Of a DNA stretch of 64,000 nucleotides, positions 10,101 through 60,300 are shown one piece after another. Position 1 is the stretch's first letter; each line of letters starts with the position of its first letter. A model generated the notes under the pieces. It did not search any database. It saw only the letters and a list, made by a program, of their open reading frames with translations, and was not told the DNA's origin. Source of the DNA: Branchiostoma floridae (Eukaryota; Chordata; Leptocardii; Amphioxiformes; Branchiostomatidae); contig NC_049989.1 of NCBI RefSeq assembly GCF_000003815.2, positions 5,113,227 through 5,177,226 of the forward strand. The letters are read 5' to 3'. Made by a program: the position numbers and the translations under genes.

Positions 10101-13100
10101 TTCCAACAGAGACAGGGCGCCAAAAAGGTCAGAAGGCAGATGTGACTGTCGACGTCTCGTATGGTAAAACTAGTTTGCCTTAACGGAACTAAGCAGTAAA
10201 CATGCACAGGCATCTTTTGCTTCTATATATATATATATGTCCGACAAAGGTCCGTACCAGTTTATCATAACCTGAAAGAATTCTACTTAGTAAGATGCCC
10301 ATTTCAGCCATCAATAAGGATATAAATTTGAATTCATATCAACTTGAAGACAGTCTAAGTACCACCTTCTGTAGTGAGCCCTGGCTCCATACTTTCGCTT
10401 GCAAACCACGGAGCTACCAGTAACTTTGCATGTTGTATGATATCATAAATACGTGAATTACATTGCATGTACAAATTCACATTTACCTGTTTCGACATCC
10501 AGCATGCCAGACAGTACTTACGTTAAAGCCAAAACGAATACACACCCCCTGTAATGTACAGCATAACCTAACTAAGGCATTTCAGCACCAAGGACAGATG
10601 CCGTCCTCCAATAGAAAACTACTGTAGTATACGTCGTCAGCGGTTCGTAACATTACTGAAACCGATCGTTGACTCTTCCCCAGATTGCCATCGTGATCAC
10701 AGACGGTAAGAACAACCCCGAGTCGCGGGTGGGGTGCGCATGGCGGCAGACCTGTAAATTTGCGCATTGTGTAATATTCAATAGCTTAGTATGTGATTTA
10801 AATTGCGTGATTTACCTGGTAACTTCAAAGTTTAAACATCCAGCATTGCTGACAATACGTAAAGCAAGCCACGAGAACACACCCACACCCTATAATGTAC
10901 AGAACAGTTAATGGAGGGCATTTCAGCACCAAGGACAGATTCCGGCCTTCTATGAAAGCTATTGAAATATACGTTGCTAGCGGTTCGCCACACAATACAA
11001 ACCGTTCTTTGACCCTTCCCCAGATTGCCATCGTGATCACAGACGGTAAGAACAATCCCGAGTCGCGGGTGGGGGTGCGTATGGCAGCAGACCTGGCGCG
11101 GGAGGACGGCATCACGCTGTACGCTGTGGGGGTGGGCGCCGAGGTGGACATCCGGGAACTTACAGACCTGGCGGGAGATCCAAGCAGAGTCTACAAGTAA
11201 GGAGGGTCCGTTATATGTGGGAGGGATGGTTATGGTCGTGGAATCTTTTGTCAATGTATTGGAAGTCGGACAAGAAAACCGGAGGCAGTCGAAGCAGTGT
11301 TTAAAACCACAGAGTGGAGTCATAGCTACAAAACCAAGTTCTTTTAGTTAGTAAATAACGTTTATAACGTTATATTCAAAGAGTAAGGTAAAATGTTCTG
11401 AATCTCTCTGTTTCACCTGTTATTTTCCAGCGTTGAGGACTTTCAGTCGCTGTCCGCGTTTGCAGAACAGGGTCCGCTGCAGACGGAGTTATGTCTGTCT
11501 GAGACAACGTCAGATAACCGAACTTCTGGATTCCCGGGGAGCAGCCGGTCGGGTCCTATTTCTTCAGAAGGTGATTTTTGGTAACACCTCAGGTGCTCGC
11601 TGAGACATTTTAGGTTTACAAATGATAACAGACAGGCTCACCATGCAACATATGAGCCTGTATCAGTAATTTATCTGGGACAGGCAGCATGATTGCACTT
11701 CTATCTTAAAGCATATAAGGTGCTAGAATTTATATAAAGGGGTGAAAAGCATCAATATGGGTTGGAACAGTCCCAGCATTACGTTTACCTTCTGTTGTAA
11801 TTGACGACTTCTGTTTTTTCAGATCTCCGCACATACGCCATCATATCCTGCTCTTCGTTCTACATGCAAGTGGACTTCCCACGGAAATATTTTCCACAAG
11901 TGTACGCACCAGCACTCCACCTAGCGGATCAGTCCTGTACTGCACGGAGCAACAGTACTCACGTCAGCATCCTGGCCCCACTGGTGGGATGTGGAACAAC
12001 CAGCTCGGCAAGTATATAGGAAATAATGCAAATGTGATATATAAAGTTGACATTCATACTTCATGAATTGCGATCTACATTAAAATAGACATTGAAAGAG
12101 AAAAAGGAAAATTGTTTGGTTGGAGCTGATCCACGAATGATGAGTTAATTTTACCTTTGCGTTTTTACAACCTGAACATTTACTTATCGATTACTCATGA
12201 TATGAAAGATATATCTCACTTCAAAAGTGCTCACTGAAAGTTTATTCTTTCTTCTCTAAATTCCAATAGAACAGAAATATCAAACTCTAAACATGCTTGT
12301 CTATTTGTTAATTTCTTTGTCTTTGATTCATTTGAATTTCGAATTTGAATTTTCAAAAACAGAAGCCTAAATTACAACGGAGATTACAATTGTGAGATTA
12401 TAATTTTCTCAGCCACTTAATTTGTGACATTGAAGTATCAAGACAACTGTCTCTTGCACGTTGCTAGATTGAAAATGAGCTGATGTTTTTTTTACTTTGC
12501 ACCATTCCAAATTAAATCTAACCATTCCATCTCTACACAGATGACTCCAGACTCCATCCTGTACCGTAACAAGGTGATAGAGGACGGGCGCTTGCTCCCT
12601 GGCTCCTCGTCCTCCCCGATCACCCGGGCCTGCGGGTTTGAGCTGGACTTCACCTGCCAGATGCCACGGCGCAAGTCCCTCCTGACCGACTACAACCCCG
12701 TAGTCCAGCCAGACAGGTTCTACGAACAGGGCATGGGGAAACTACAAGCTGTTTTAAGGTGGGAAACAAGAACTCATTTTACAGTGGCAAGTGAAAACAG
12801 TTTACACGTTACAATAGTGAGACAAAGATGTGAAAAGAAAGAGCATTTTTTGCAGTGATATGTTTGTTTACGGTGACAAGTACAAACATGTTTTTAGGGA
12901 GAGAACTAAGAACCTATAGACACTGTGTGGTCGTTTCCTATGTGATAATACTGAAATTTCGGCGTTTCTCACATCTACCTTTCTTCAGCTTCCAACCGAC
13001 TGTTTCTTCTTTATTCCTTGTTGATCAAACTTTTACTGAAAACCAAACAACCATCTCAGGTTCTGCCGTGATGCCGACTGCCTGTCGTACAACACTGACT

Positions 13101-14014
13101 CCCCGCTTGTCGTCAAGATCGGTGGCAACATAGTGGTAGAGATCGAGCTCCTGAACTCTGACCCTGATCTCAGCATCATGGTGGAGGACTGTATGACCAC
13201 GGACACGCCCGCTAACACTGGTGGGGGGTACCGGTGGCAGATCATTCAGGAGGGGTGAGTCTGTGTTTTGTTTTGTTTATTAGGTTGGAAAAAGTACACA
13301 CACTTGGTACACGATGCAGAGTCATTGTGGTGCTTTTAGTCACTGCAACTACATGTACAGTACAGCATATATAAAGGAGGGTGCCCTACTTTTTTCTAAA
13401 ATTATATTTAGGGCCTCCTCTCCTCTGATACACAAAAAACAAAAGTACATATGGCGGTTGGGAGAGAAAAATTATTTTGGGGCAATACTGTTTTCAAATA
13501 CTCAACATGCTAAACTTATATGTGAAAATGGACTAAGAAGGTGCGTAATGCTGTTGACATGCCAAGCATTAAAACAAGCCTACATGTTGTTTCCCAGGTG
13601 CGGTGTGGACCCCACCTACCACCAGCTAGCCGCCCCACGCCACTCGGCCGAAAGGTTCAAGTTCCAAGCCTTCAACTTTGTCAGTGATGTCACCAGGGTC
13701 TACCTGCGGTGTGGTGTCCTCGTCTGTAGGGCTTCTCAACCAGGGAACAGGTGATGAATTGTACCTTTCTTCTATTTGATCTCTGAATACATGCCGAAAG
13801 GGAATATGGTAACATTTTCTGCCCGTTCTGAAACACTTAGGATATCAGAAATAAAACTCTGACTTCCACCATATCTAACAGGTGCGCCCGTGGGTGTGTC
13901 AGACCAAGGAGGTTGAAAAGAGGAATGAGATCAGTGGTGAACCTTGATGATGTCATCATCCACGTCATCTCTGGCCCTCTTGTTCTCCTGCTACAGACGA
14001 CACCGCGACCCTAA
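7114..14014 (+). CDS. Secreted LDLa - vWA - ZP domain protein
   Basis: Exons: 7114-7207, 7755-7974, 8359-8465, 8897-about 9049 (or 9031), 9386-9608, 9968-10127, 11024-11196, 11431-11570, 11823-12007, 12541-12758, 13060-13254, 13598-13750 and 13882-14014. Phases agree throughout; the product is about 711-717 residues. The start gives a hydrophobic signal peptide (LILTLLFNNLVLCA). Next come an LDL-receptor A-like module (VPSLWVCDGTADC...SEDESAC), a Cys-rich segment, and a vWA domain with a full MIDAS set (DGSAS, the T of GTETG, and ITDG). A ZP domain spans 11823-13750, and a furin-type RLKR site is followed by a short hydrophobic tail (VISGPLVLLL). Members of this class are exported and can polymerise through ZP modules; adhesion or matrix function is inferred. 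The exon-4 donor is weak, and the intron after 12007 uses a GC donor. Confidence 0.85.
9609..9845. repeat. (GT)n-rich microsatellite
   Basis: An imperfect TG/GTGTG-rich stretch lies in the intron just after the vWA exon donor at 9608/9609. Long apparent reading frames across it (Val/Cys-rich) are artefacts of the repeat. Confidence 0.8.
10581..10597 (+). promoter_or_regulatory. RE1/NRSE-like 17-mer
   Basis: TTCAGCACCAAGGACAG: both half-sites of the vertebrate RE1 (TTCAGCACC and GGACAG) are exact with the 2-bp spacer. It lies in an intron of the vWA/ZP gene, inside the duplicated segment. Confidence 0.4.
10684..10754 (+). pseudogene. Truncated, frameshifted copy of the second vWA-half exon
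   Basis: This 71-nt block has an intact acceptor (CCCCAG) and reads IAIVITDGKNNPESRVG like the real exon at 11024-11196. One G is missing in the G-run, and similarity stops after GACCTG. Splicing it in would shift the frame and lose the rest of the vWA domain, so it is a broken exon copy, not a usable alternative exon. Confidence 0.8.
10922..10938 (+). promoter_or_regulatory. RE1/NRSE-like 17-mer (duplicate)
   Basis: Identical 17-mer in the second copy of the tandem intron-exon duplication. It is kept while much of its surroundings diverged. Confidence 0.4.
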
Positions 14015-14843
14015 GGACAAGTGAGTCCAAACTGCCAAAACAGACTTGTTTTGCATACTTTATATATTATAGCGATGATACTGTTTTTTGGGCCTTAGTG
14101 GTATTCAAGTAAAAGTCCATTCCACGCCAGTTCATCGCCAAATTGATTAATTCCATGGCCCCAGCAGACTAGTTTAATTGCATCCGCCATTGTAGAGTTC
14201 ATCACTCATTAATCCATTGTCTCTGGGTATACCTTGTTTGTGGAAAGATTTTACTGTCCAATGTGTTTTGAAATGATTTTTCTTTTGCTCTATGCAGATT
14301 GGAGACTACTGAAGCTTGATATTCGTGACATGACAACTGCTCTCGGATTGAATGAAGAGTTCGACAACCAATGAAGATATTTCTCAAGAATTCGACCAAA
14401 TGTGCATAAATGAATCTAGATTTATATGATAAAATACTATTCATATAACTGTCATTCTGTTGAGTAATAATAATGATGAACTTGCATGGAGATAAATTTC
14501 AGAGTTTGTGTCTTTCATGTATATATGTGTGTTTTCTAACTAAACACTAAACACATAAGAACATTTACCTCTTAGAAGACCCACAAATTTCATGAACTGC
14601 TTATTCAAATTTCCCGCCTAGTTCAAATTAAATTCTATTTCTTCAATTTGCCATCACCTACCAACAGACATGCCAAATATCATCAACAACAGTTATTTTG
14701 TTCACAGGCAAACAGACAGACACACACACACACACACAAACATAACCATCTCAGCCAGAGTATATGTATTCTTCACATCTGCCAATTTTACTGCCACTTC
14801 ACAATCTATAACAGTTGCCTCTTAGGGTATTTGGGTATTTACT
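14015..14843. other. Spacer between two convergent genes
   Basis: This holds the 3' UTR sequences of the vWA/ZP gene (+) and DPH1 (-). A GTGAGT donor at 14031 and a CTATGCAG acceptor near 14298 suggest an intron in the 3' UTR of the plus-strand gene, or an alternative C-terminal splice form. A short (CA)n run sits near 14720. No other gene is visible. Confidence 0.5.
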
Positions 14844-17800
14844 TTACTGTTGTGCATTTTTTGAACACGACTCATTTCCACAACATGATTTCTTCAGAGC
14901 ATACTGTGCCAGGTTTTCAACATCAGGTTTTCTATCAGTTCTGTTATCACACGAGCTTGTTGGGGTAGTCTCCTGCGGACTTGACGTTGGCTTCGCTGTA
15001 ACAGTTCTTTTCTGTCGGACGGGACGTGGCGGCCGGTGCTTCTCGTTATTCACAGTCCAGGGCCCCAGGCTGGAGTTAGCGTAGTAGTCCATGGGATAGG
15101 TGTTCTGCCAGGATATAGCATCAAGTGCAACTGAGGCCTGGGAGAAATAAGAGAACATGATTCAAACAAAACGAACATTACACATATGTATATACAATAA
15201 GGTAATAAGAGATAGAGGACTCCACCCAAAAGTAAGAGCACTGAGGATGATAGCGATGATGTATTGCGCATATAGGGAATCACGTAAACACATGCATACA
15301 CAAGGATACACATGCACACACAAGGACACATGCTCAAATATGTAAGTGCTAAGATACTATGCTAGAGATGGACTCTCTCTCGGACGGACAGAAAGATATA
15401 TATATAAGATTTCCACACCTCGTAAGGTGAGAGGAGAGGCTTGGTGAATGCTGTTCCCCAGTCTATGGACAGTCGTGGACATGCCACCTGGATCCATCTG
15501 CAGAAACAACATTAATGTGGACATCTTAACTTTTACTGGAGACAAGCTGGAAACAGATAGAGATCCATCTCATGTACTTTAACAGAGATTGTTTTACTGA
15601 AAATGCTAGGGCAGCAAAATGATTTGTTCCACCTTTATGATTGAACAGGTTAAGCAAAAGATACACACAGACAGATTGATATAGATAAATATAGAAATAA
15701 CTTACGCGTCTACGTCTGAGAACATGTTGAGTTTGTCTGGGAAGACTTCTGACAGTAAGACTGTGACATACTCCTTACCACACTGCTGTAGCTTCTCTCC
15801 AATGTGCTGTAACAGTGGACACAAGAAATCCTCATCATACATACTATCAAACCTGCAGCTGGTACATAAAAATTCCACAGCTTACGAGGGGCGTTCAAGA
15901 AGTAATCCACCTGACCCACTTCCAGTTGTCTGATCTAGATGAAATTTTGCATATGTAATGATTCATATCTCTATGGGTTATGTTGCAAAAAACAGCTCTG
16001 AACTAATTTTGGTTTTTGATTTAAAGGTGTTTGAACTGAGTCAGGTGTGAAATGGACCAGGTGTGAAATGGAGCCAGTTGAGTGTCGCGCAGTGATCCGG
16101 TTTTTGTATTTGAAAGGACGCATACCAAATGAGACTTTTGATGAAATAAAAGAAACTTATGGTGATGATTCCCCATCATATGACCTTGCAAAACGCTGGC
16201 ATTGTGAATTCAAACATGGCCGGAAGTCTGTGGAAACAGCTCCCAGACCTGGTCGTCCCTCTTCTGCCATTGATGAGGCATCTGTTGCAGGACCAACCTG
16301 GGGCGTCCTACAAAAACGGTGTATAGAGCTGCATCAAACGATGGTAGAAAATGCATAACTCTGGGTGATTCCTATGAAGAGAAAGACTAATAACTGCACC
16401 AAGTTTCATTAATCTCCTCCTTTGGGAAATGGGTCAGGTGGATTACTTCTTGAACGCCCCTCGTATAACCTTAAGCTAAGTGTATCTCTATACTGGTACA
16501 GTACTGATACTGATACTGAGACATTTGGAACCTGTACTTTTTCCTGTACTAGTACTGTGCTGTACTGTGTGTGATCCTGAAGCCCTACATCATAGTTTAC
16601 TTGAACAAATAATCTTCAGAGTTAACCTGAACAAATGATAAACACATCATCCAACAAAACCTGATTCCTTACCTCCAGGACCTTAGGAGACCCCTGTCTG
16701 CCCAGGGTACCCAGGATCAGCCCAAACTTGTTCCCCTGTGCAGCTGTCTGGATGGCCTGGTGTCTGTTGTGGTGCATTAGGTCAATGTCATAGTACTCAC
16801 GGGAGAACACCTTACTGTAGGGGTCATACCTGTGCATGGGGGGAGAGAGGTACATACAGCAGATGAACAGGGAATAATTGCATTATGTTTCTCCTATAGC
16901 AGCACTTCCTAGCAGAACAGACCTAAAGTGCAGTCAGAGACTATAAACTGGTACAGTACATGTAGTTTCAAATTCAGTTCAATCTCTGCAAATCACTGGA
17001 TGATATAGGAAGATTATACATGAGGATTACTGCAGTTAGTGACTTCATCATCTTCTACCAGTTTTTACAGTTTGGGCTTTGAATGTATAGCACTGACTCC
17101 TTCTGCAAGTCCACTCTAGTGACACTGAAGAAGAGTACTGAAAGTCACTCCAGTTGCAGGGATTGACTTGTCTAAAACCGTGGTTTACCTGGACTTCAAA
17201 TCTTCACTAATGTATGAAATGAAGAAATGAAGAAGCTGTTTGAGTCTGACCTGTACGCTGGAACTTCAGGGTTGGCAATCATGATAGCCTCCAGGTGGAA
17301 CCGGCCGTCACCTAGGTAACTGGGGTGGGAGGGCGGCAAGAGGAACAGCATTCAGACATTTCTTCATTTTGCAAAAATTACTTTTGACTCGTTACTGTGG
17401 GAAGCAGTACTTAACATCAAACTATATATATGTGAACACACAAACACTTTGTAAGTGATATAGTGACATATGGTTTTTGTATGTTGTACTCTTTGTAATA
17501 ATCCCTTCTCTTACAATACTGTGTCTTAAATCTAACAACAGATGATTCATCGAACAAGAAATTTATCTTTGCTGGTTACCTATTGACATTTGATACACAT
17601 CCAACCATCAAAGTAAAATGCATACTACCATGATGTTCATTCTGTTATATGCAGCATCTTTTGCTGTTTCTATTATGGGTTTCTCAGGGCTGATATCAAT
17701 TGTCATCTTATCATGGTCATTGATGACCAAAGGGGGCCATATATGGATGGCTAGCGCTGTTTCTGTTCCTAGATACAAGCTAGTACCACTCACATGATGG

Positions 17801-20800
17801 CATCCGTGTCCTGTAGTCTGGGGGCAGTACAGCCCAGGATCTCCCCTGGGGACAGGGGTTTGGACTGGGGAACATGAACTTTGTAGTCTGTACTCAGCTC
17901 TTGCTTAGCAGCCTGTGGGAAAGGAAAACAAAATGGGTGATCAAAAACTAGACACATTTAAACTACATAACTATGAATGTGGTTCTATCTTCCCACCACT
18001 TTTGATTCACTTCTGATGTCATAGCACTTCCAGTTTCAGGAAAGTCTGCACATGTACAGTGAATGAGACATTTGATGAACTGCGGCGAGATCAACTGAAA
18101 ATTCATGATTCCTCTGTGAGGGAACAAAGCTTTTACGACTTAAAAGTCAGGAAACCAAGAAGTTTAGTAGTGTAGGTACCATTTGATTACTACCAGCCCT
18201 GGTAGTAATTGGTAGCCTGGAGTCCAGCCTTGTTCGCTTTAGTCTGCTCCTGAAGAACTAAAGCGAACAAGGCCGGACACCAGGCTAAGTAATCAGATGA
18301 TACCCAGGCTAGTAGATTAGGACCAAAAGATGCCTCCTATATCAGCACCCTCTGGCAGAACTTACCTGAAGTGCAGCCACAAACTGTATGGTGCTGACCA
18401 GTGCCAGGGAGGAGGGAGGGCTGAAGTTGTGCTTCACGGTCTCAATGAAGTGCATGGTGTCGATCTTAATGTCCACAAACACATACAGCATCTTCATCCC
18501 AGAGGTGGTATCAATGGGAACTGTATAACACAGGGAAAAAGAAATTTTTGCAAAAAAAATGAAAACGGGAATAATGAACCTTGCAGCTTGCTGTAAAGAG
18601 GGTCAATATACATGCATCTTGGTAGGATAGCCATGAAATGATTCTAGATCTTGAGAAAGACATACCCATAATGTCCAAACAATTTGAAATGATCAGAGGT
18701 CTTAGACTTTGTTCTCCTGACCCTTTGTTTGTCATGAAATGCAGTTTATCATGTTATTTCTTTGACTTTGACTTTATTCAGATCCACTTTTAGCTATTAC
18801 AAAACAATTCTGCCAACTAACATCCTAAAATGCCATAGAGTACTTACTTATAGCAAACTATCAGAATGACTACACTTGCCAATTCCAATTATGCATTAAA
18901 GGATAGCACTACCTACTCTATATACTGATCGGTTCATCATAGTAGTAAAAACAAGAATGAAAGATGGAATAAATGGATGGATGAAAAATAGATGAATGAA
19001 GATAAATAAGGAGAAAATAAATAGGTGAATAAATGAAAGAAGATAGACATCAGTGTGTAAGTAAGTGTGAGCAAGGATGTTATAGAAAGAGTAGAAAGTT
19101 TCCTTACTGAGGCAGCTGTGCCCATAGTGCACCATGAGGCCGGCACCCAGAGCCTTAGCAGTGAAGTCATCCACACAGCAGGCACCGTATGTCACATCTC
19201 CCATTATCAGGGTGTCTGCTTCTGTAAATCTGACAAACAAAGAAGAAAAATATATACTCTAATCCCAATCTTTTCGGTGCAATGGCTGTGTGGGTAGGGT
19301 GTTTGCATTGCATTCGGTAGGTCGAGTTATACCAAAGACTTAAGAAATGGTACAGCTTTCTCTGCTAAGCACTCAGCATTCGGGAAAGAGTATGGAAGTG
19401 AAACCCACTACTATAGTGATTGCACAAAGTTGTGTCGCCAAGGGCTACTGAAATGGAGATGGATGGTGCCCTATCAGGGCATAATTGGGAAGGACTTTGA
19501 TGAATCCTAATCTTTGTAGCACAAAAACCTGTAAAACGCTTATGGTACAAATTTTTTTCATTGTTAAAAGCTTAAGGTTCTGCCATTTGCTGTGCCTTCT
19601 TTTTACTCTCTGTTTATTTACTTGCAAGTGTTACAAAACACTAAACAGGCTCACAGGCAGCGTAGCTGATTACACTAGTTAACATTAATTTACTCTTAAT
19701 TAATGTAAATACTAGTGACCAAATGTAAAGGCTGTCAGAAGAATTCCATGTCTGCGTCAAATAAGATTCCTCATTTTGTGGTATCGTCCTGTTTCTGGAA
19801 AAGTTAGTCACTTGAAAAACAGAAGAAAGGACAAACCTTTCTATGATGTCTGCTATGGTGGTTGCAAACATCAGGAGACCTTCTGGGAACTGTAAGGCCA
19901 CTGTAAAATGAACAAGAGTTGAACTTTATCATTGTTTAGCATTAGGAGGTATAATGAGCAGGAAAAAGTTGAAATGCTGAATTTTTTTTTTTTACAAAAA
20001 AGCAAGTCAATGATACCTTACAAAGTAACAGCAACAAAAGACACTCACCTCTTTTGGCTCCTGAAGATTTCACTCTCCAAACTGTCTTGAAGATCTCAAA
20101 GTTGTAGTTTGAAGGCAACTGAAACAGGCAATGAAAATTGACTAGTAACCACTTTCATTATACTAATCCTAGAAAAAATGACCTCCGTGTGTAGTGTAAC
20201 GTTACATACATACTGTCAAAGTCATATAGATCCCTAATGAAGCTGAACTATGCTAAAGGTTTATTGGTCCTCGGGTGACTAAATGATGCCACATCAATAC
20301 AATTAGCGATGCCCCTCCCCCACCTGTTTGACTGCCTGCTGTAGTTCCACATTGTTGAGGATGTCCTCTGGGATCTGATGTGCCAACCGTGCTGTAGCTC
20401 CACCTGTTAAGCACACATGGAAACGCAAAAAATAGTCATGTTGTTACTTTTATTGTGTTGTCACTTAAAACTTTATAATCTATATGCTTCAACTGTGTTG
20501 CTGTTGTTGTCCTTATTCAACCTCTACCATTTGATACACTTGTCTCTAGCTGCTAGGTTACACTGGGTTCAATTTACTATTATTTAGTGCAGGTAAACTT
20601 TCTTGGTTTCGCTTTTAACGCTACATTTCCAATCACGCAAAAAAAGAAAACGTACGCCCCCCTCCCACCCTATGCACGCACGTACACGTTCATATGCATA
20701 CATATCATCACAATCGACATTTCATACAGCAAGATACAATCGTTGATATGTACTATATCATTGTTACCCATACCCTTTGGTCCTGTAAATCTCCTCCTCT

Positions 20801-20867
20801 TTTCCGCTGAAGTTTTCGCGGAAATTACTTTAGGATCGCACAGTTCTGAACCGGAAACGGCAGCCAT
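14844..20867 (-). CDS. DPH1: 2-(3-amino-3-carboxypropyl)histidine synthase subunit 1 (diphthamide biosynthesis)
   Basis: Twelve exons (high to low): 20774-20867, 20324-20403, 20049-20118, 19837-19900, 19108-19229, 18366-18520, 17794-17912, 17251-17319, 16673-16829, 15706-15806, 15419-15497 and 14844-15137. They total 1404 nt, 467 residues, all in phase; human DPH1 is about 443. With DPH2 it forms the radical [4Fe-4S] enzyme that transfers aminocarboxypropyl from S-adenosylmethionine to a histidine of elongation factor 2. Recognisable blocks are [81 protein letters not shown] and SLGPWTVN. The cluster-type cysteines are expected in GACCVDD, GCTAP and ACPRL, and all are present. The tail after SLGPWTVN is longer than usual and ends in a Cys-rich segment (CCGNESC). 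Identification is secure. Confidence 0.97.
15885..16463 (+). mobile_element. Internally deleted mariner-type element (579 bp) in a DPH1 intron
   Basis: Perfect 34-bp terminal inverted repeats (15885-15918 and 16430-16463, beginning CGAGGGGCGTTC) are flanked by TA on both sides (15883-15884 and 16464-16465), the target duplication of Tc1/mariner elements. Inside is only the N-terminal DNA-binding part of a transposase. The catalytic region is missing, so it is non-autonomous. It lies antisense to DPH1, in the intron between exons 9 and 10. Confidence 0.93.
16068..16358 (+). pseudogene. Remnant of mariner transposase, helix-turn-helix part only
   Basis: The reading frame from ATG 16068 gives about 96 residues. 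The first about 65 match the Mos1/SETMAR-like DNA-binding region ([16 protein letters not shown], then [12 protein letters not shown] and a PRPGRPSSA linker). After EASV the protein joins an unrelated stretch and stops, showing a deletion of the whole D,D-D catalytic domain. Confidence 0.88.
18213..18287. repeat. Short hairpin (MITE-like) inverted repeat
   Basis: Arms of 31 bp (18213-18243 and 18257-18287) pair with few mismatches around a 13-bp loop. The core CTGGAGTCCAGCCTTGTTCG recurs inverted near 46.5 kb, so it is a dispersed repeat. It lies in the DPH1 intron between exons 6 and 7. Confidence 0.75.
19276..19500 (+). mobile_element. tRNA-derived SINE copy, degenerate
   Basis: It begins GGTGCAATGGC, continues through GCATTCGGTAGGTCG and ATACCAAAGACTT, and ends AAGGGCTACTGAAA...GGGAAGGACTTT. 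The same ordered blocks occur at 33354-33654, where tRNA-like A-box and B-box sequences are clearer. It lies in the DPH1 intron between exons 4 and 5. Confidence 0.7.
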
Positions 20868-21911
20868 GTTCTAGCAGACGATGCCTCTGCAGTGCGGAGC
20901 AAAATGGCTAGGTGACGTTGCAACATAGAATAACTTTATTGCACTATACTCGTAACGTTGCCACCTTTGTGTTACCGTTACATTGAACTGAATTCAGTGG
21001 AATGAATTTTTTTTCCATCAGACGAAACATCTTTCTAGATGTTCATTCAAATTCATTCTCATATAATTCTGTTTCCAAAATTGCAAAAGAAGTGTGTTAA
21101 ACAACGCAGTAACGTTATAGTCTCTATAATAATGTTGATATAAAGATCACTAACGTTACCAATTCAAGGTTATAAAGACAACTTTATGAGAACTTATTTA
21201 CTTGAACAATACATAGTGTGTTCTCCTTCTTATGTATTTTTATTTTAAGTAAATACACTAACGTAACCAGAAAATTTAAGGTTATAAAGACACCTTTAGG
21301 TTCAATATATAAAGACACCTTTAGGTGCGCTGCAGTTGTAAGTTGAAGTAGTCATTACTGAATTCAAAACTCAAATGAATAATACATACATCCATTTACA
21401 CATAATTTCACCAGGTTATATAAAAAGAAAGCCCCTGAAATCCTCCATTTTCCCAAGCGATGATAGAGCCCGTGATACTACACTTGCACTTGTCCTCAGC
21501 TGACCCGCATGGTGTCCCACGCCATTGACGTCACGTTTACGAGACCGCAACAGAACGAACCCGTTCTCCCAGAATGCAAATGAATATTAACAACGAGCCT
21601 TAAGCCTTAAGGCTATTTCACCATCGATATCGTATGCAACAATAGCTCTTTTGATACCATAAAATATCATCGAGTCTATATTTTCTGGCTGTGTAATTGT
21701 GGAGCTAACAGATAAGAAACGATCGGGCGGGTGAAAGTTCATTCCGAGTCCATGTGTCAAGTGTTACATGCAGAGAGACGGGTCAACTAAGAAGGACGGC
21801 ATCGCGACAAGGTGAGACCGGGGCGGCGGCACCTTGAATCACATTCAGGGACTGCCCTAGCATTGTGTTTGGCGATGCTTTGTTCTCCAGTCGCCAGACC
21901 AGCCTTCCACC
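20868..21911. other. Divergent spacer between DPH1 and sulfotransferase
   Basis: The start codons are 1,044 bp apart and face away from each other. The 5' half is AT-rich with simple local repeats (AAAGACACCTTTAGG occurs twice near 21290-21325). The 3' half is richer in CpG and should contain the sulfotransferase 5' UTR. A palindromic CRE is at 21526. No coding exon is visible. Confidence 0.6.
21526..21533. promoter_or_regulatory. Palindromic cAMP response element TGACGTCA
   Basis: A perfect TGACGTCA lies 386 bp upstream of the sulfotransferase start and about 660 bp from the DPH1 start. Its position in the divergent spacer makes CREB/ATF binding plausible. It is an 8-bp motif, so chance occurrence cannot be excluded. 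Confidence 0.4.
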
Positions 21912-24900
21912 ATGCCGGTTCTACACAGAAACCATTCCGTAGTTCCCCTCCAACCGTCTGACTATAGGGAATATCAGGGAGTCATGTTTTCGGCGCTATA
22001 TCCGCCTGAAGACATCAGAGCACTTCAGGGATTTCAAGTTCGGGACGACGACGTTTTCATCGCGAGCTATCCACGGTCAGGTGAGAAAATGTTTGGTAGC
22101 ACTCGAAGAACCAGCAATAATTTGTACGACTGCGTGGCGTTAATTAATTGAAGCTAATTTCAAGTCGTAACGTTAAGTTTGTTTAACGCTACACTTTGCT
22201 GAAGCTTGAAACAGCAGTAACATGAACAAGTCTTCGATTAGGTAAGGATTCTGTAATTTGTAACGATACCTCCTTTTCCAACAACAAAATCTAACCAGGT
22301 GCAACTGTGTACAAAGTGCATAGTCTCACCAGTAGAACGTTGCACGGCACCGTTATGAGTGCAGTTTCCGATCATAACAGATGTACGAATTTAGCTCATA
22401 TTAGGCCGAACTATTCGTAAAATTACATTCATCATCTAATTGCATAAACTGTCGTCTAACGGCGTTTCTCACAAGTGCTTGATCATGGCGGCTGCACATG
22501 TTATTAGTGATACACATTTTGCTATATTATATAACCATAGTAACATATGTATGGTCAAAAACTCACCAGATTAATATTGCTAGTTCTAGTACATGACCAA
22601 CAAAGGATGCACATACCACGAATTGAGTCTGTAGTAATGGCAACAAAAAATTAAAAATGGTCAAATTTTTCACAGTGCTATTCTTGTGTTCGATTTCGCA
22701 CGACCACAGTATAACTATGATGTTAAAACGTTCCCCATACAAATAAAGCTGTTGATAGAAAATATAGCATTTCAAACGTATTGTAAGCAAAGGGCAATGT
22801 GAAATCATGTCTACATTTAAATGTGCTCTAGAGTTATTAGTTATATATGGCAACAACAGTAAAAATCCCCTGAACAACGGCTTAAAATCTGCGATCCTGT
22901 TGATATAGACGGTGGTTACACATCCAGGTGATACGATGTTCATGATAACAGTTACTCAACAAACTAGATGATTTTTGTCCAAAATCTATCCAGGTGCTTC
23001 AGTAACTATTATTTGCATATCTTGTGTATGATATACAGTGAATATCCCATCCCCAGATGGTGGTACTCTACCACATGGACAATGATTTACATGATGCGTA
23101 TGTAAAATTGGCTACACAGCACGAGCCAGGGACACTGTATTGAAAATAGCATCCTTGAAAGAACTAGACACATTTGCCACGTGTATGTTTTGTCAAGATA
23201 GAGCTCATTAAAATCCTAGCCATATAAACAACTCACTTCTTTTTTTTTTTTCATTAGTCACTTCTTTACTGATAGCGAAAACACAACGAGGTGAAAATCT
23301 TAAAACATTTCAATGTCTGTGCACCAGAAGAAAGTGAATAATGTTACAGCTCATCGTAGGATTCAGCTTTATTAATATTCAACAACGTCTCACAAACCAA
23401 CGTTACAGGCGTTTCCTTTTTTTCACTCCTATAAATTCAGCTACGCCAAACAAGGTTTATATTTCCGTTCCCAGCGGCCATTGAAACAGTAGCCGGGCGT
23501 AAATTTGGCAAAGGTTAGTGTCCCAGGGCAGGGCATGGCAGTGTCCTCCAGCCAGGCCAAGGTCAGCAACGTAATACATCAGGGTCACGTTCACAAATTG
23601 AATCTCCCTCCATCCGAGATTTCACCCGACTGTTACGTGTTGGAATCACACCTTTGTCTCTTGGTGATGGCTTCAGTGTGCTCAGTTATAACGTACAACA
23701 AGGGCCGTGAACGTAACATCAGTACAATACTGAGGCCCTGAAACTGGGGCGTGTTTGTTCTAACCCGCTGGAACTGTCGTCCTGTATTCGCGCCCTCCCC
23801 ACCCCACGCGTCCTTGTCCCCCCGCTCGCGCGTATGTTTTGTTGCACCAGTAAAAGGGATAAAAACCGGCATCCGTAGAGAGATTGACCCTGACCTTGCG
23901 TAACCTCTGTCCCGTCTGTAAACCCGAACCGATCAGAAAAACATCTAATCTCCTCCACATCCGTCAACACGGGCCTCGGAGGTAAAGAAATACCTGTTAA
24001 ATATTGATGGAGTCGCGGTTTTAAAGACTTGTCAAGGGCGCCATTGATCGAAATACCAAAATCGGAGGCGACTTTCGTGTTATTGGGACTTGACAAATGT
24101 AGATTTCATTTCTTTTATTCATATTTGTATGCAGGTGCGCAAAAACGTGCCCACGTATGAATACTGGGGTGATAAAGGTCGTTTCAAATATACATGTTTG
24201 TCTTGCATGCTCCAAAGCGTTTGGTAAATATACATGGAACGCAGTTTATAGCCTCAAGCCTCAAGTATTCGTCATTGAACGAACACTGTACAATTACAGT
24301 ACGCAAAATCAATTTAACACGGTACGTTATTCTTAAAATCAATAGTTGTACAGATAAACGACGACCGCGCATTGTCACAAAGTTAGTTCTAAGGTATCAT
24401 CAAGAATTTATACCTCGCACACTGCTATATCTCGTTTTTTATGCCGGCGCGCCCATTTAGACATACGAATATGATGCACACGTAATTAAGACTTCGTAAA
24501 CAGACAAAAACTACAAATAGATACAAAGACAACCAATAGTATTATTTGATTTAAGAATGTATGATTAAACAAAATACGTTTGCTATGTATCAAAGATTCT
24601 TTAAAATTCTAGCACGTTTTTCTACCTTTTACCGTTCTGAAGTTCTGAACCGAAAAGGTTGAAAAATTACTTAGATTCACCATACTCCGTAAGTAAGTAA
24701 TTATAAGTACTCTACTTTTGGATTCTACACCCTTAAAGTTTGGTCTGTTAGTCATAGCTATCACCTTCACCAAGAAGGTTATGTTTTCTGTGGCGTTTGT
24801 TCCCGTGTATGTCTGCCTGTAGCTAGCATGCGCATAACTCGAGAAGCTGTGGATGGATCATTCTGGTATTTGTTAGGGAAACGAAGGTCGGGTTCGATTA

Positions 24901-27660
24901 TGGGCCTCCTAGCGACATTCTATGGTACTGCAGCGGAGGGTTGGTATCTTGTTTTTTTTTTGTGTGTGCTTCGCTTACAAGCCCGACTTTCTGTTCCAGG
25001 TTCCACGTGGATGGAAGAGATCGTGTCTCTCATCTTTAATGGCGGGGATGTGAGCCGGGTGGCGACCGTGCCGGTGTACGAGCGGGTACCGTGTCTGGAG
25101 GAGCGGCCGGTCGGGACCAGGGTGCCGAACCGCCGCCTGCTGGACGCCGCCGCGGGCCCCAGAGTCATGAAGACCCGCCTGCCCTGGAGCATGGTCCCGC
25201 CTCAGGTCCGGCAGGGGAAAGGCAAGGTGATTATGAGATAAACGAAAATGTGCCAGTTTTACGGCTCTGTCATATAACGTTATGACAGATGTTCCCAGTG
25301 CTGCAAAAGAACCAAACACACTTTTAATTATCGAGAAGAGTAGGGGTCACACGATGTGCTTGGTTAAAGCCGCAAGCTATAGCAAAGCCGCTTTATTGTA
25401 ATACTGACTTCAAAGATCATCATGCTTCATTTCAATTGAGGACATGATAAAAAATGAGTATCTGTCGCTTTAGGTTTGGAAAGTTCCCCATCTCTTCATG
25501 TTTCTACACAATGCTCACGCTCCAATTTTCGTTACTAGAAGTTCCTTCACTATTGCTAATTGTATTGTAGACCTAAATTTGTTTGTGTACTAGACTAGTA
25601 GTAGTACTTCATATGTAAGATTATCTCAGTGCCATGATCTGGAAGTAGATTGTTCCTTCTAGACCTGACTTGGAAAGCGCCCCCTGTCCCATCCCTACAG
25701 GTTGTGTACCTCGCCAGGAACCCCAAAGACACGTGTAACTCCCTTTACCACTTCCACCGCATGAGCCGATGTCATGTCACACCCGAGTCCTGGGCGGAAT
25801 TCTTCTTTCACTTTGTCGAAGGCAAAGGTTTGTTCTAGAAAGATATTCATTCATTCATTTCCTTTCATTTCATGCATTAATTCGTTTTTTTGTTCGTACT
25901 TTCGTTAGCTCGTTCGTTCATTCTGAATATTTAATGGTAAAATCCCACCCAGAAACCATATATATGTGATATACTAGTATTCTATACAACCGTTGACAAT
26001 TTATCAGTGACATTTTCTTCCTTTAACAAAGAGCAGTCAAATTCAAAGATTATTCGTGCATTGATATACCTTTCACTCTGCCCAATATAAACCATATGCA
26101 GTATAATATTTTTGATGGGTATAATAAAAAATGCAACTGTATTCTTTTGCGTAAATTTACTATTCTGTTGTTTCAGTTGAGTTCGGGTCTTGGTTCGACC
26201 ACATCCTCGGCTGGCAGACACATGCCAGCACCTATCCCACAAAGATGCTGTTCGTCAAGTATGAAGATTTACACAAGGTAAGCTATAAACATTCATTAAC
26301 GTTTTTATGATCATAGCGTAAACGTTTAACACCTTGTCAAAGGTGAATGACACGCTCTTGTACGTGGTGACACACCGGGCAGTTACCTTGCTGTTATTAC
26401 CTTGCCGAGTAAACACTCGTATTATTCACGAACGTTCTGTTGTTGTAGTTCAACGTTTGCGCAGTACGGTGTCAATGCCCCACTACCAGGTTTGATCAAA
26501 TAAACATGATATGCATCCCACATGGCATATCGTGCAGTTGAACTCTAGCGTGTGGAGGGGATATAAATAAGTTACCTATCATTGTGATGTGAACGGGGAT
26601 CGTATCTGGTGTCAGGTACTGGCTTTACCCAGTTACGCACAACTCAGTGATGACATCTAGCGGAGTTGATAGAAAGATCAAGTCGTACTGCACGTTGTGA
26701 TGGTCTATCTGCCAGAACGATCCACGAGCATTTGAAACATGAATTAGGCCACAGCAAGTAAACTTTATAGACGACATCCTCTGTGGAATCCAAACCTAAT
26801 GCAAGCTTCGAAAAAATCAAGATGGGGAAAAACAAGTGGCTATAAAATCTACTTACTGTGGCTTTACACACAAATAAATACGAAACTCATTATTGTTTTT
26901 TCGTACCGTAGGACCCTCACATGGTCGTGGCGCGAGTGGCACAGTTCCTGGGCCGGCCCCTGCCGCCACAGACCGTGGACACCGTCGTCAAACACTGTCG
27001 GTTCGACAACATGAAGGCTAACCCCATGACCAACTACTCTAACGATGACCGCTTCGACTTCAGCCAATCAGAGTTCTTGAGAACAGGTGGGGAGATGACG
27101 TAGTTGTAAAGGCAGTGATGTAATGTACAGAACATGCAGAAGAGCCGACGTACTTTGAAAGCAGGTGTAAATTTTTGTCACGTTTTGGACGAAGTGCGGA
27201 AAACCGCATGTTCATCTCGTAACTAATTGATGTAACACAACATATGAAAACACTTTGTTCGGGTCCCTTGTATATTTATAAGCAAATGTGTGTACATCAT
27301 GATCATCAATTATGAACAACGACTGCTTATAGGTGCCTTCTGTTAAATGTGTTCAATTTGTATCAAAATAATACCTACTAATCATTGCCTCTAACAATAA
27401 TACATCATGACAATCAGTCATTCTCACCAGGTGTATGTTCACAATTGCGGTTTTCAACATTATGCTCAATGGACTGTTTTTGTTTTTCATGTCATTCAGG
27501 AACTGTGGCTAACTGGAAAAAGTTCTTCCTGGTCATCAACAGCCTGGATTTTGACCGGATCTACGCGGAGCGGATGCAGGCGAGCGGTCTGCAGTTTGAT
27601 TACGACAGGACCGGCGAGTTCGGGGCGGACAGAGACCTGGACGATTATTGTTTCAGATAA
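21912..27660 (+). CDS. Cytosolic sulfotransferase (SULT family)
   Basis: Exons 21912-22080, 25000-25226, 25701-25827, 26177-26277, 26912-27086 and 27500-27660 sum to 960 nt, 319 residues, all in phase; SULTs are usually 285-305. These enzymes move sulfate from PAPS to small hydroxyl or amine acceptors. The 5'-phosphosulfate loop YPRSGST (53-59), the 3'-phosphate residues in LARNPKDTCNS (R138 and S146, correct spacing) and the C-terminal RTGTVANWKKF (the RKGxxGDW region) are present. The catalytic-base position in the usual KTHLP motif reads K-T-R-L-P (Arg 116), so activity is uncertain. There is no signal peptide or membrane segment. Subfamily and substrate cannot be read from sequence. Intron 1 (22082-24999) is nearly 3 kb and holds a block repeated at 29.3 kb. 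Confidence 0.93.
22382..23248. repeat. 867-bp block duplicated at 29319-30185
   Basis: This intronic block of the sulfotransferase gene is repeated 6,937 bp downstream with essentially no differences (I noticed one substitution, CTCATTAA versus CTCAATAA). The second copy fills the whole contig between two N runs. A real old duplication would be more diverged, so a misplaced haplotype contig is the likely cause. Confidence 0.9.
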
Positions 27661-28445
27661 AAAGATTCAAAAAAGTTAAGGCCATATTGATTTGATTGTA
27701 TGGATGACATACTCTATGAATACCAAACTGATGCGAGCGTGCGAATAAAAAAAAGTATGGTAAAATGAAATCTTAAGTGGTCAGGAAGGTTGAAGAACGT
27801 ACTTAACACAAAGAGTATGGTGTACCTTACAATAGATTCTTCATTTTTGTTCTTTCACATCTTCTTCTTTGACCTTGAAAATAACCTTGGCATCCGATGA
27901 CATAAGAACACGTTTTTCTATATTTTGTTTTGAAATCTACAGCATGTATTGGCCCTACTTTGTACGACTAACAGTGTGGCTGAAAAGTTTTCTTTTTGGA
28001 AAAGGTCGAAAATTCATGCGGGCACGGATGTTATCCATATAATCAAACCCAACATGGCCTTATGTCAGGAAAATCACAATGGTGCTAAAGAAATAGATAA
28101 TAAGTGAAATGCTTCGTCCAAATGATTTTCTTTACTTTTTTCTGACCACGTAAAATAGGAGTAGATCAAGTGGTGAATAGGTTGCAGTGTTTTTTTTTCT
28201 ATCCTTTGTGTTTCTCATGATTTGCTGGTTACAAAAGGGAACGTGCATTGACCTTATGATTAAGGCTTTGAAAATACCTCAGATCATTATATGATCCTCC
28301 AAAACATGAATCTAATATCACTACAAATGCGTAAAATTACATTATGATACGGACATTGATTATTGCCAATGGTGCGCTTGTATATTCAAAATCTTTATTC
28401 AACCGTTGAAACAGCAGTTGAGTTGTGAATTGTATATGGTGTATT
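27661..28445 (+). other. 3' flank of the sulfotransferase gene
   Basis: AT-rich sequence with no credible exon. AATAAA-type signals occur near 27745 and, beyond this stretch, at about 28524; either could end the sulfotransferase transcript. Confidence 0.5.
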
Positions 28446-28554
28446 TGACCACTCTGCTGTTTCAGCCTCGGCAGCTAACTATTATAAAGCAACAGGAATA
28501 TCGTCCTAACGTATTTTCCATCCAAATAAAGTCTTTTAACTGAAAACGATTATT
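28446..28554. repeat. 109-bp block duplicated at 30631-30739
   Basis: The two copies look identical and each abuts a piece of the same retroelement: after the block at 28555, before the block at 30630. This geometry would fit a long target duplication around one insertion, or collapsed and mis-joined haplotypes. Confidence 0.85.
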
Positions 28555-28869
28555 CTTACCGAAAACAGTGGATGAGTAGTACTGCGTCATGACATCTTCA
28601 GCTGCTTCCTCCCATCAATGGGGGTTTCGCCCCCTAGCAGGACCCCCTCCGGGAGGCGGGGCAGGCAGTGTGGCCAATACTGCCTAGTCATGACCTTTCC
28701 AATCACGTTCATTGCTTCGGATCCAGATCCATCGTGATGAGCGTTCTGCTTCTTCGGTTAGTCTTCTGGTAGCATCTCTCCTCCTTTTCCCATTTACACC
28801 AACTGCTCCTAGTGTCTTCCATACTGACTGGCCAATAAAGCCTCTGGTCCCAACCTCCACTGGGTCGTG
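28555..28869 (-). mobile_element. 3' end of a LINE-like retroelement, C-terminal ORF fragment
   Basis: Read on the minus strand, 28869 down to the stop at 28684-28686 gives a C-terminal segment with PVEVGTRGFIG, a GVNGKRRR run and EEAERSSRWIWIR. This pattern is common at the end of reverse-transcriptase ORFs of invertebrate non-LTR elements. A GC-rich 3' tail follows. The fragment is cut at its 5' side. Confidence 0.7.
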
Positions 28870-29192
28870 AAACTATGGAAGGCACTACTTTCCTCGAATA
28901 CGCACTAGTACTTGGTACTGTTCACAAAGAATAGAAAGTGCGGAACTGTGCAGCTGTATTTGTGTTAAACTTACTGTAAAGGTGGTTGTGAACCTGCAGT
29001 CGATATTTTGTAGTTTCAGTTTCCATGAAATCGGGAAAACGCAAGAGACGTTCGTACTCGCAGAAAGTAAGAACGGGAATTTTGAAAGAGCACCCGGAGG
29101 TACGGTAACGGAGGTTCACCTTTATCCGTAGGGTAACCTCTATCGGTTCGTATTAAGAACTATGTATTTAGGGGTATCAAGTCAACAGATGG
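28870..29192. repeat. 323-bp block duplicated at 31033-31355
   Basis: The two copies look identical over their length. The first ends exactly at an N run; the second continues into unique sequence. It contains no gene: the repeated 65-residue minus-strand frame has no recognisable features. Confidence 0.9.
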
Positions 29193-29313: not shown

Positions 29314-29318
29314 ATCAC

Positions 29319-30185
29319 TGTACGAATTTAGCTCATATTAGGCCGAACTATTCGTAAAATTACATTCATCATCTAATTGCATAAACTGTCGTCTAACGGC
29401 GTTTCTCACAAGTGCTTGATCATGGCGGCTGCACATGTTATTAGTGATACACATTTTGCTATATTATATAACCATAGTAACATATGTATGGTCAAAAACT
29501 CACCAGATTAATATTGCTAGTTCTAGTACATGACCAACAAAGGATGCACATACCACGAATTGAGTCTGTAGTAATGGCAACAAAAAATTAAAAATGGTCA
29601 AATTTTTCACAGTGCTATTCTTGTGTTCGATTTCGCACGACCACAGTATAACTATGATGTTAAAACGTTCCCCATACAAATAAAGCTGTTGATAGAAAAT
29701 ATAGCATTTCAAACGTATTGTAAGCAAAGGGCAATGTGAAATCATGTCTACATTTAAATGTGCTCTAGAGTTATTAGTTATATATGGCAACAACAGTAAA
29801 AATCCCCTGAACAACGGCTTAAAATCTGCGATCCTGTTGATATAGACGGTGGTTACACATCCAGGTGATACGATGTTCATGATAACAGTTACTCAACAAA
29901 CTAGATGATTTTTGTCCAAAATCTATCCAGGTGCTTCAGTAACTATTATTTGCATATCTTGTGTATGATATACAGTGAATATCCCATCCCCAGATGGTGG
30001 TACTCTACCACATGGACAATGATTTACATGATGCGTATGTAAAATTGGCTACACAGCACGAGCCAGGGACACTGTATTGAAAATAGCATCCTTGAAAGAA
30101 CTAGACACATTTGCCACGTGTATGTTTTGTCAAGATAGAGCTCAATAAAATCCTAGCCATATAAACAACTCACTTCTTTTTTTTT
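29319..30185. repeat. Second copy of the 22382-23248 block
   Basis: This makes up almost the whole contig between two gaps and matches sulfotransferase intron 1 almost perfectly. It carries no extra coding information. Confidence 0.9.
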
Positions 30186-30630: not shown

Positions 30631-31558
30631 TGACCACTCTGCTGTTTCAGCCTCGGCAGCTAACTATTATAAAGCAACAGGAATATCGTCCTAACGTATT
30701 TTCCATCCAAATAAAGTCTTTTAACTGAAAACGATTATTAATTGGCTGTGTTATTTTTTTCTAGTCTTTACACGTTGATAGACTTATGGTTGCATGCATT
30801 TTTACATTTTTTTGTTTTCCAATTGAGTCCTATTAGACGTAAGAAATATGTCGCTACCAGTTCGTTTACTAATGTTTCATACATCCATACATAGTCTATA
30901 CATTTTCCTAACATTGCGTTGTAACAAATCTAACCGCCCAAACTATCAAGTTGATACCTCGTATTGCTTTTGCTGATACTGATCGCACTATGTACATGTA
31001 GATATTGATATGTAATTTAGCCTAAGACATTTAAACTATGGAAGGCACTACTTTCCTCGAATACGCACTAGTACTTGGTACTGTTCACAAAGAATAGAAA
31101 GTGCGGAACTGTGCAGCTGTATTTGTGTTAAACTTACTGTAAAGGTGGTTGTGAACCTGCAGTCGATATTTTGTAGTTTCAGTTTCCATGAAATCGGGAA
31201 AACGCAAGAGACGTTCGTACTCGCAGAAAGTAAGAACGGGAATTTTGAAAGAGCACCCGGAGGTACGGTAACGGAGGTTCACCTTTATCCGTAGGGTAAC
31301 CTCTATCGGTTCGTATTAAGAACTATGTATTTAGGGGTATCAAGTCAACAGATGGTGGTTTCAAACTGCAATATTTTGAGAATATCACAATTTAAAACTA
31401 CCGTCCATCGGCTTGATATCACTGGATACCCTGTTAAGCAACATAACGGATATAGGTTACCCCGCGGATAAAGGTGAACTAACGGTACTTCGGCTTAAAT
31501 CCGTTAGGGCACGGTGATGTAAAAACGTAGCAGCAATATGGTGCCAATTTGTCTTTTG

Positions 31559-57336
<25,778 letters not shown>

Positions 57337-60300
57337 CAGCAACTTGAGCCCGACGATGTCCCCCTCTCGGTACAGCTAAGCAGTCCTCTACCAGATGTAG
57401 TTGGTATCAGTTAAATGTGCACCGTAGACACCTTTCAAAAGACGCACAATATTCTGTCTAACGCTGTCGGCACACAGTAAGCAGAAAGGACAGCCCTGAT
57501 GAACTTTCCTCAGATGTGACACTGCCAGCAAATCCTCTAAATGGCAGCTGATTTTCCAAGAATATCCAGTAACCAGAGGTCTCCCACCTCCAACACGGAT
57601 CAAACGCGTGCGATTAGCTCTCTAAATAAAAGATTGTCCCTGACCCGTGGTGATGCAGAGATGCTCCTAGTCACCGATGGTGCTTATACTTACAGCGACC
57701 TCCTCTCCGGAACGTGCTGACGGATGAACGATAACCGCGTGTCTCTGCGCGAGCTCCGTCCTATTTCATACTAACTTCAGTCTCGCTTGCCTTGCGGAGA
57801 GTCCAATGGGTGATGACGTTAAAACTCATCGAAAATTTATGAGAAAATGTGCAGAATAGTCTGGTCGAGAAAAGCTGCACGTCTCTGAAGGTTAAGCTGC
57901 GAGTAAAGTGAAATATTAAAGGCGTTCCTTTCATCATCACTGCTCGGATTCACGCCTTGATGAATCCGCCTCTTCCCCATTGCCCTATCCGCCCAAGTCT
58001 ATTACTGCCCACCCAGCCTTGCAAAATTGCACATTCGAAGAGGATTCAATCCCAGTGCACAGTGTGCCGAGGGAGTCAGAGAAGCTCTACTGCAGAGGAA
58101 AGGACTGGAACGGGCAGGCATTATGGAGAAGGCTGGTAACAAATATCGTTTACTCGGATGTCTATAACCTTCATTAACGACGGAGGCTGGAACAGCCTGG
58201 AATGGCTCAATATTCATTTCAACTCTAACGCTGACAAAGACAGCATGTCGACGGGTGATTCCGTCAGGAATTAATCAGAAAACCAGATGGTGCCCGACTA
58301 TGGGTGAGCACAAACAACCATTACTCATTTTCTGCTTCGTTCATGAAAACATGCACAGTTCAAAAATGTAGTAGCAATAAAATGGGATACCCACACCCAC
58401 TAACTGTTTGCTGAAAATAGGTGTTGCAATCATCGTATAATGTAAAGTTCAATGTATATGCACAGCAGTGCTATTATGTTACCCTTTTCGCCTGTGCATA
58501 GCATCGAACTATGCATGCGAGATTGTAACGTATCGCCTCATTTCGTCAACGCGCTTCTTTTGATTTATTATTATGCGTTGTGGGATGCAACATTTAAGAT
58601 GACGTGTGGATACTGAACCGCAACTTACTGCTTCGCATCAGCAGCGCTGGCAACCGTACAACCTATATCGCTTCAAGCCCGCTATACTTCAGAATTAACG
58701 GTCGCACATTCAAAGGTTGGCGTCGTTAAGGGACAGTTTCATCCGATGAACGATAACCCGGTGCTGTAAGACGATTCTGATAACGTGTCAGATTTGGGGG
58801 GTCCAGTGAATTAACGGGGTGGGCAGACCCCCCCCCCCTTTTTCCAAACAAAACCCCCAATCATCTCCACAAGGCCGCAGGACGTGTTGCCGATGCTAAA
58901 GATTTCATTCACGTGGGGTGAAGATATTTTGATGTAACCCCCAGATCATCTTCCAGAGGAACTTTCACAAAGCAGGCTGCCAGCTCCGGGCAGGTTGCAT
59001 TAAATCAGATCAGTTTTCCGGGGGGTGTCATCATAAATCATTGATCTACGAGCCTGGAGCTACGTGGAAATATCATCGCCTTGCGTCTCATCTGAAGGTT
59101 ACCTTGGAAGTCAGTACTAGTCAGTACTTGTCTAACTTGTCATTAGTTCCCGCAGCACACACAAGACAAAATTACTTCTCTATCGCACCATTCTTTGAAT
59201 CAAAGTGGTATGAAATATCAAGCAGATATCGAAAGAATCACAGTTGATATTTAAAATGTGTATGTGTGTATGATACACTACTTTCATCAAAACTACCCTT
59301 TCATGTAAGGGTGAACAGTCTAAAGGTATAATCAAAGCAGAATAACCGACGCTTTCAGACAGACTCGATGGGTGTCTGCAACCACGTTTTCAACCCCAGC
59401 AGAGGCAGAGAAAAGATTTACCGGCACCGAAAGGGCATACATGACTAGCTATCCGCGCCCGGGGGTATATGATGGATTTGTGAGTCCGTTTCCTCAGGTA
59501 TAAACTATTACGTTAGTACCTGTCCTTGGTGCTGAACAGTCACCACAACAGTCAGTAACAAAATCATCGCCTGAAGTCGTATGAATATTGTGCAGGGAAC
59601 AGTGAAAATTCTCCTAAGCCTATCAGCTACAGTAACAGCCGTGTCGATTGCAGCATAAGCCTCGCTTCCCTCCGTCCATCCAAACTAGCCGCTGGGTGGA
59701 AAGCTCAAACTGCGTATGCTCCAATCACCACGTTAAGTTCATGGGGGATTTTGTGAGATTAAAATGGGCGTCAAGATGGTTTAGTGTGTGTACACGCTTC
59801 CCAGGTTTGATATTAGGTGATGAGCAATTCAACCCACCGCGTTGGTAGGAGTAATCGAGTACTGGTCAGGCGGAACCATTCTTCCACAAGACAACCCAAG
59901 GGTAGAATTGCTGTACGTATGCTGATCGCGCTAGTCCAGGCTCCTATTCAAGTTCAGAAATTCAAGTATAAAATATCAGCAGACTACACACCCATTCTAG
60001 ACAGCAATGTCTAATCTCATTTTGATACCGAAGTAACCAATATAATCGATGATTAATACTGTCCTTTCAATCACAGCCCTCTGAGTCCAGGGCCCTCCTT
60101 GCAATCAGATATGACTGTATCTAATATATCTAACTTAATTGTGTTCCTCTGAGAAAGACACTTCATTGTAACAAAATAGTTAATGAAAATTACAGGACAG
60201 CAATGCTGCATCTGAATCGGTAACGACTTTTCAATAGACAACAAGAGTGCAATGGTCTAAAGATATCTCTGCGATGTTTGTCGACATAACAGAGCACTTA

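Follow-up and report, generated by a model that had tools for sequence, protein, structure and literature searches.

A 17-bp word matching the core of the vertebrate repressor element 1 (RE1, also called the neuron-restrictive silencer element, NRSE), the site of REST/NRSF, recurs in a 64,000-nucleotide stretch of the genome of the lancelet Branchiostoma floridae (NC_049989.1, positions 5,113,227 to 5,177,226 of the forward strand), hereafter the window. Because this word, TTCAGCACCNNGGACAG, is repeated thousands of times in the lancelet genome with sharp edges, something in that genome may well read it. The explanation that we favor, and to which we give about an even chance, is that the word is a 17-bp box under constraint, recognized by a zinc-finger protein whose specificity resembles that of REST, and that the box also lies within minisatellites or seeds them. 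The REST-RE1 system is generally described as belonging to vertebrates, and a non-vertebrate chordate with thousands of sharply bounded RE1 cores would make its origin testable.

The word lies at six places in the window:

10581..10597, plus strand: RE1-core word, exact, spacer AA
10922..10938, plus strand: RE1-core word, exact, spacer AA; local-duplication copy of the 10581 site
32589..32605, minus strand: RE1-core word, exact, spacer AA; likely intronic in a sulfotransferase-like gene, judging from an exon at 31562-31981
32825..32841, minus strand: RE1-core word, exact, spacer AA; paired with the 32589 site by a decayed local duplication, with a 21-bp perfect run over the word
46433..46449, plus strand: RE1-core word, exact, spacer AG
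59520..59536, minus strand: RE1-core word, exact, spacer AA

A sequence-only reading of the window had placed the motif at these coordinates and strands and had judged its fifteen fixed bases to be beyond chance. Both claims hold, with all six sites exact, five of them with spacer AA and the one at 46433 with AG, and an expectation of 0.00 from 100 dinucleotide shuffles. In a census of window words that was blind to RE1 and skipped low-complexity words, the word holds the top rank at k=14 and k=16, and at k=12 it shares that rank. The degenerate NRSE consensus NTYAGMRCCNNRGMSAG has 7 matches in the window, and near-copies with 1-3 mismatches are found at 43758 and, within a minisatellite at 53 kb, at 53206, 53396, 53495, and 53594. 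Additional bases shared between copies had been taken as a hint of a repeat. The CTG...GTA edges common to the 32.6- and 59.5-kb copies are indeed real, but no above-null homology extends past them.

Genome-wide counts were made over 513,431,437 bases in 431 contigs, the chromosome-sized ones measuring 17-35 Mb. The full-genome scan for the 17-mer that had been proposed found 3,462 + 3,965 = 7,427 exact copies, compared with a single copy of the reversed word; when at most one mismatch is tolerated, the numbers are 16,728 and 22. Together with the shuffles and the census rank, these counts rule out a chance origin of the word. Under neutral decay, the 9,301 one-mismatch copies set against 7,427 exact ones would imply that each core position has diverged by ~8%, and the flanks of the different contexts are unrecognizable. 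Outside the lancelet, a 19-mer form was found 3 times in public prokaryote genomes, about the chance level, and the 17-mer 3 times in viral contigs. A search of the open-licence literature returned no account of the word as a lancelet repeat.

To describe the surroundings of the copies, the first 100 listed places, which cover 8.7 Mb of contig C1, were grouped at ~1 kb into 44 contexts. Forty of these were analyzed; the other four are two arrays, at 417 kb (L007) and 911 kb, and two places near the end of the stretch, at 8.62 and 8.73 Mb. One exact copy is present in 34/40 contexts and two to nine in the other 6/40. Further degenerate copies (1-4 mismatches) occur in 21/40 contexts, compared with 3/40 for the reversed word; within the analyzed stretches, 15 of the 34 single-copy contexts have such an extra copy and 19 do not. 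Extrapolation from contig C1 gives roughly 2,600 separate contexts genome-wide. At this density 64 kb would hold 0.3 contexts. The window has four exact ones, an unusual richness for which it was chosen.

Alignment of the copies with their flanks, as had been suggested, reveals that conservation ends at the borders of the word: across the 40 contexts the sharing is limited to the 17 bases, the first spacer base being A in 33/40, the second A in 20, G in 10, C in 5, and T in 5, and the next base after the word G in 22/40. The edges are sharp whether copies stand alone or form the heart of a tandem repeat. A word that is dispersed on both strands at high copy number could be a piece of an interspersed transposon, for example a MITE. 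However, no pair of different window contexts exceeds the 95% null flank score, no common ends are seen past the word in the 40 contexts, and with exact words masked only 4/780 pairs show flank homology at E<1e-3; one of these four pairs stems from a local duplication over a distance of 2 kb, and another is a 21-bp match overlapping an unmasked degenerate word. Many copies also lie in tandem on the same strand. We therefore reject the transposon as very improbable: the copies compared do not align to one transposon consensus, and it was alignment to such a consensus that the sequence-only reading had named as making the motif a repeat by-product.

The word fits the 17-bp NRSE core consensus, which is a vertebrate one. 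Since a random 17-mer fits this consensus with a probability of 2.4e-7, it is unlikely that the top dispersed word of the window does so by chance. The specified core bases, the 2-bp spacer, and the prevalence of A as first spacer base are the same as in vertebrate RE1/NRSE. The canonical RE1, on the other hand, is a 21-bp form ending in CGCC (PMC3529185, in the portion available). This form occurs 0 times in the window, and the tail is present in 9/7,427 genome copies against ~29 by chance, G and not C being the usual next base, which rules out the canonical 21-bp RE1. As these last four bases are termed lesser-conserved (PMC4430910, excerpt), their absence weakens the RE1 interpretation without killing it. 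Because the 17-bp core is present and the 21-bp form is not, the word is best described as RE1-core-like and not as RE1. The RE1 option of the earlier reading is supported for the core and, in part, for the positions at which substitutions are tolerated, and is not supported for the full-length element; the label vertebrate-like suits the core only.

Tolerance within the word is uneven. Genome-wide, one-mismatch copies number 1,928 for position 1 and 1,769 for position 6, but 201 for position 5. Counted by separate contexts among the places listed over the initial 26.4 Mb of C1, the values are 40, 47, and 9, respectively, so that the ninefold raw contrast falls to four- to fivefold, arrays having inflated the raw counts. 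Among 24 distinct one-mismatch variants from the loci sampled, variable positions account for 20 (P 2.5e-4), and the change is of an allowed type in 12 (P 1e-3). In the vertebrate consensus NTYAGMRCCNNRGMSAG, position 1 is free, position 6 takes A or C, and position 5 is fixed (PMC4430910, excerpt). For the three positions counted genome-wide, the lancelet word agrees with vertebrate RE1 in that 1 and 6 vary more than 5 does, and disagrees in the favored base at 6.

The word also outlasts its surroundings in two local duplications, with perfect runs of 24 and 21 bp. The sequence-only reading had derived two pairs of sites from local duplications, and both are real. The first pair lies in the following copies:

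10489..10754, plus strand: duplicated intron end and exon start of a gene with a VWA domain, first copy; resembles a lancelet 'mirage', with exon borders predicted
10830..11095, plus strand: second copy of the same VWA-gene duplication; 24-bp perfect run over the word, intron part 70.7% identical

Within this 70.7%-identical intron, the 24-bp run over the word has a P of 0.002. The second duplication, around 32589/32825, is decayed, with both flank scores at 18, above the 99% null value of 15; its 21-bp run comes from an alignment that includes non-homologous ends, which overstates its P. Both pairs were noticed through the word being present in both copies, and the constraint tests carry this selection. 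When the window was compared with itself with the word masked, the 10-kb duplication was recovered, the 53-kb array weakly, and at 32 kb nothing; no statistical tie between the word and duplications in the window is therefore claimed. Lancelet mirages are duplicates of an intron end plus exon start (PMC3087553, excerpt), and the 10.49-11.10 kb duplication copies the same parts. Units of 10-160 bp are described for lancelet minisatellites and mirages in the same paper, the available part of which mentions no shared RE1-like core such as is present here.

Many copies of the word are the cores of minisatellites, whose units differ although a few are related. Those considered here, apart from three arrays from blind sampling, are:

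53184..53625, plus strand: minisatellite in the window, ~50-bp unit, nine units; seven with the core at 0-4 mismatches to TTCAGCACCAAGGAGAG, two more degenerate
elsewhere in the genome, word-carrying array units: 24 bp in L044 (two mismatches); 40 bp in L007; 43 bp in L038 and L040; 51 bp in L052; 53 bp in L016 (one mismatch)

Identity among the nine units of the 53-kb array, which were aligned with the core as anchor, is 0.74 over the 14-bp core and 0.54 and 0.39 in the flanks. Twenty blind 10-kb stretches (185,756 bases) contained large word-cored arrays in 3/20, a small sample, with units of 43, 39, and 50 bp (L071, L072, and L073); these arrays make up ~3% of the bases, and the reversed word never occurs within two mismatches in the 20 stretches. 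The 50-bp unit of L073, in a 36-copy array, is nearly identical to that of the 53-kb window array. A tandem-repeat origin of the motif, which had been offered as one option, therefore applies to many copies, but not evidently to the 34/40 contexts with a single exact copy, 19 of which lack even a degenerate one. The CENP-B box is a 17-bp protein-binding box retained in satellite units that otherwise diverge. The lancelet word would be an analogue, as a 17-bp box kept while units diverge, but differs in sequence and in having many single copies spread along chromosome-sized contigs.

These arrays bring in the most substantial competing account, which we consider less probable than a box that is read but well worth retaining: the word would be a neutral minisatellite core that promotes or accompanies tandem duplication, the single copies being remnants of collapsed or decayed arrays, with no reader and a coincidental RE1 identity. 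The abundance of array copies, the word-cored arrays in the blind stretches, and the excess of degenerate neighbors over the reversed word are as this account would have them. In addition, 3/28 pairs among eight array units are alike at P<=0.002 (L040 with L071, L072, and L016) and six more at 0.01-0.05, so that the arrays may in part descend from one old family; the remaining pairs show nothing. Conversely, flanks resembling one of the eight units (P<=0.003) are found in 2/34 single-copy contexts (L025 and L032) and at 0/6 window sites, and the L052 unit carries the exact word without any likeness to the other seven (P>=0.148). Neutral decay also leaves unexplained the four- to fivefold lower by-context variation of position 5 relative to 1 and 6, and it requires a coincidence with the NRSE consensus of ~2.4e-7 per word.

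A check for a REST orthologue had been proposed, and none was recognized; each protein or family search scored ~150 candidates among thousands, so that an orthologue may be missed. REST fingers 1-8, a query that Pfam PF24540 recognizes, gave 608 matching places, the best among the candidates scored at 151.7 bits (L085) and the next at 125.9; L085 is a tandem C2H2 protein with contact residues that differ from those of REST. The search with fingers 2-4 produced no outlier among the candidates scored (best 61.4 bits). A pattern for the finger-4 helix had 48 matches against 41 for its control, i.e. chance level, and 4 of the 48 places were examined with no REST-like frame. Pfam PF24540 had 21 matches in the genome, and the 10 loci examined are generic C2H2 arrays. 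Large C2H2 zinc-finger families (L055-L064, L085, L086, and the matches of the finger searches) are candidate readers of repeat words, and many of the listed zinc-finger matches are crowded on contigs C158, C10, C16, and C323.

In a stricter form of the favored explanation, the sites would be true RE1 elements through which a genuine lancelet REST orthologue silences neural genes. We regard this as unlikely. It can draw on the presence of all specified core bases, on A in the first spacer position in 33/40 contexts, on the positional tolerance, and on the following neighbor:

35017-36321, minus strand: two-pore-domain potassium channel gene, one uninterrupted frame of 435 aa; ~2.2 kb from the word at 32.8 kb

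The channel is only distant kin of the solved vertebrate K2P channels. Set against this form are the missing CGCC tail, the lack of a recognized orthologue among the candidates scored, and a copy number ~ten times the 742 matches that a looser consensus has across the entire genome of Xenopus (PMC4430910, excerpt). The frequent location of the lancelet word inside minisatellites is a further difference from vertebrate RE1/NRSE.

Several of these results, together with details of the variants, weigh against the favored explanation: the rarity of the CGCC tail and the outcome of the finger and helix-pattern searches; the usual variant at position 6, which is T in all but 9 of the listed places, all on C1, where the vertebrate consensus has A; an array (L071) with T at the fixed position 9, the C9 being lost (TTCAGCACT); the restriction of the genome-wide one-mismatch counts to positions 1, 5, and 6; the non-independence of copies within arrays; and the relatedness of some array units. 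Because the positional contrast shrinks from ninefold to four- to fivefold and several array units are related, the favored explanation was weighed down and the neutral one up.

The mechanism that we propose for the constrained box is as follows. The box would be TTCAGCACC-(A)(R)-GGACAG, most often followed by G, and its reader a multi-zinc-finger DNA-binding protein, REST-like over the 17-bp core and not over the CGCC tail. Binding would retain the box while the flanks decay, and at some of the ~2,600 contexts local tandem duplication would have built up minisatellites in which each unit has one box, an arrangement seen for part of the copies only. Silencing at the word is a possibility that its resemblance to RE1 suggests. 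Shared ancestry with vertebrate RE1 is conceivable as well: the RE1 core may be older than vertebrates, a genome-wide chordate box in minisatellites and single sites that is read in lancelets by a repeat-policing zinc-finger protein, and vertebrate REST may have taken over this mode of recognition, gained contacts to CGCC, and been redirected to the silencing of neural genes. We put this scenario forward as a doubtful one, with a modest chance of being correct. The word offers a ready binding assay for a possible ancestral reader, and it would connect the growth of minisatellites to a transcription-factor site.

Most of an annotated microRNA, bbe-miR-2060c-3p of Branchiostoma belcheri, also consists of the word: it contains the whole 17-mer with G before and after it, as at 32589, 32825, and 59520 (PMC5650284, excerpt); this paper is the only place in the open-licence literature where the forward 17-mer was found, by the portions available. 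The reverse complement appears in three other papers, which by title concern mouse hearts or heart cells. If the word were a miR-2060 family microRNA, the six sites would be its loci. However, no complementary arm is seen at nine sites (the six words and three array units), the best agreement with the reverse complement within 90 bases being 10-11/20, and the window has no match to any Rfam family at or above the gathering score. MicroRNA loci at the window sites are rejected on these grounds, and with 7,427 copies, far above any microRNA gene family, the idea has hardly any probability left. Since the word has thousands of copies, a small RNA equal to it needs unique mapping before it can be traced to a single locus, and the annotated bbe-miR-2060c-3p may be repeat-derived, a fragment of a very abundant repeat word.

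Some further features of the window were recorded. The CpG observed/expected ratio is 0.77, unlike that of vertebrates. One coding feature concerns a possible mobile element:

16035-16355, plus strand: open reading frame for an HTH_48 domain as in Mos1 transposase; may be a domesticated gene or what is left of a mariner-type element

A 50-bp repeat, 86% identical between 19275-19324 and 33353-33402, has by eye a stretch like a tRNA B box and is possibly a SINE; ARAGORN detected no tRNA. Finally, near-identical direct duplications (99.9-100%) link 22382-23248 with 29319-30185, 28870-29192 with 31033-31355, and 28446-28554 with 30631-30739, and represent either recent duplication or unresolved haplotypes of the assembly.

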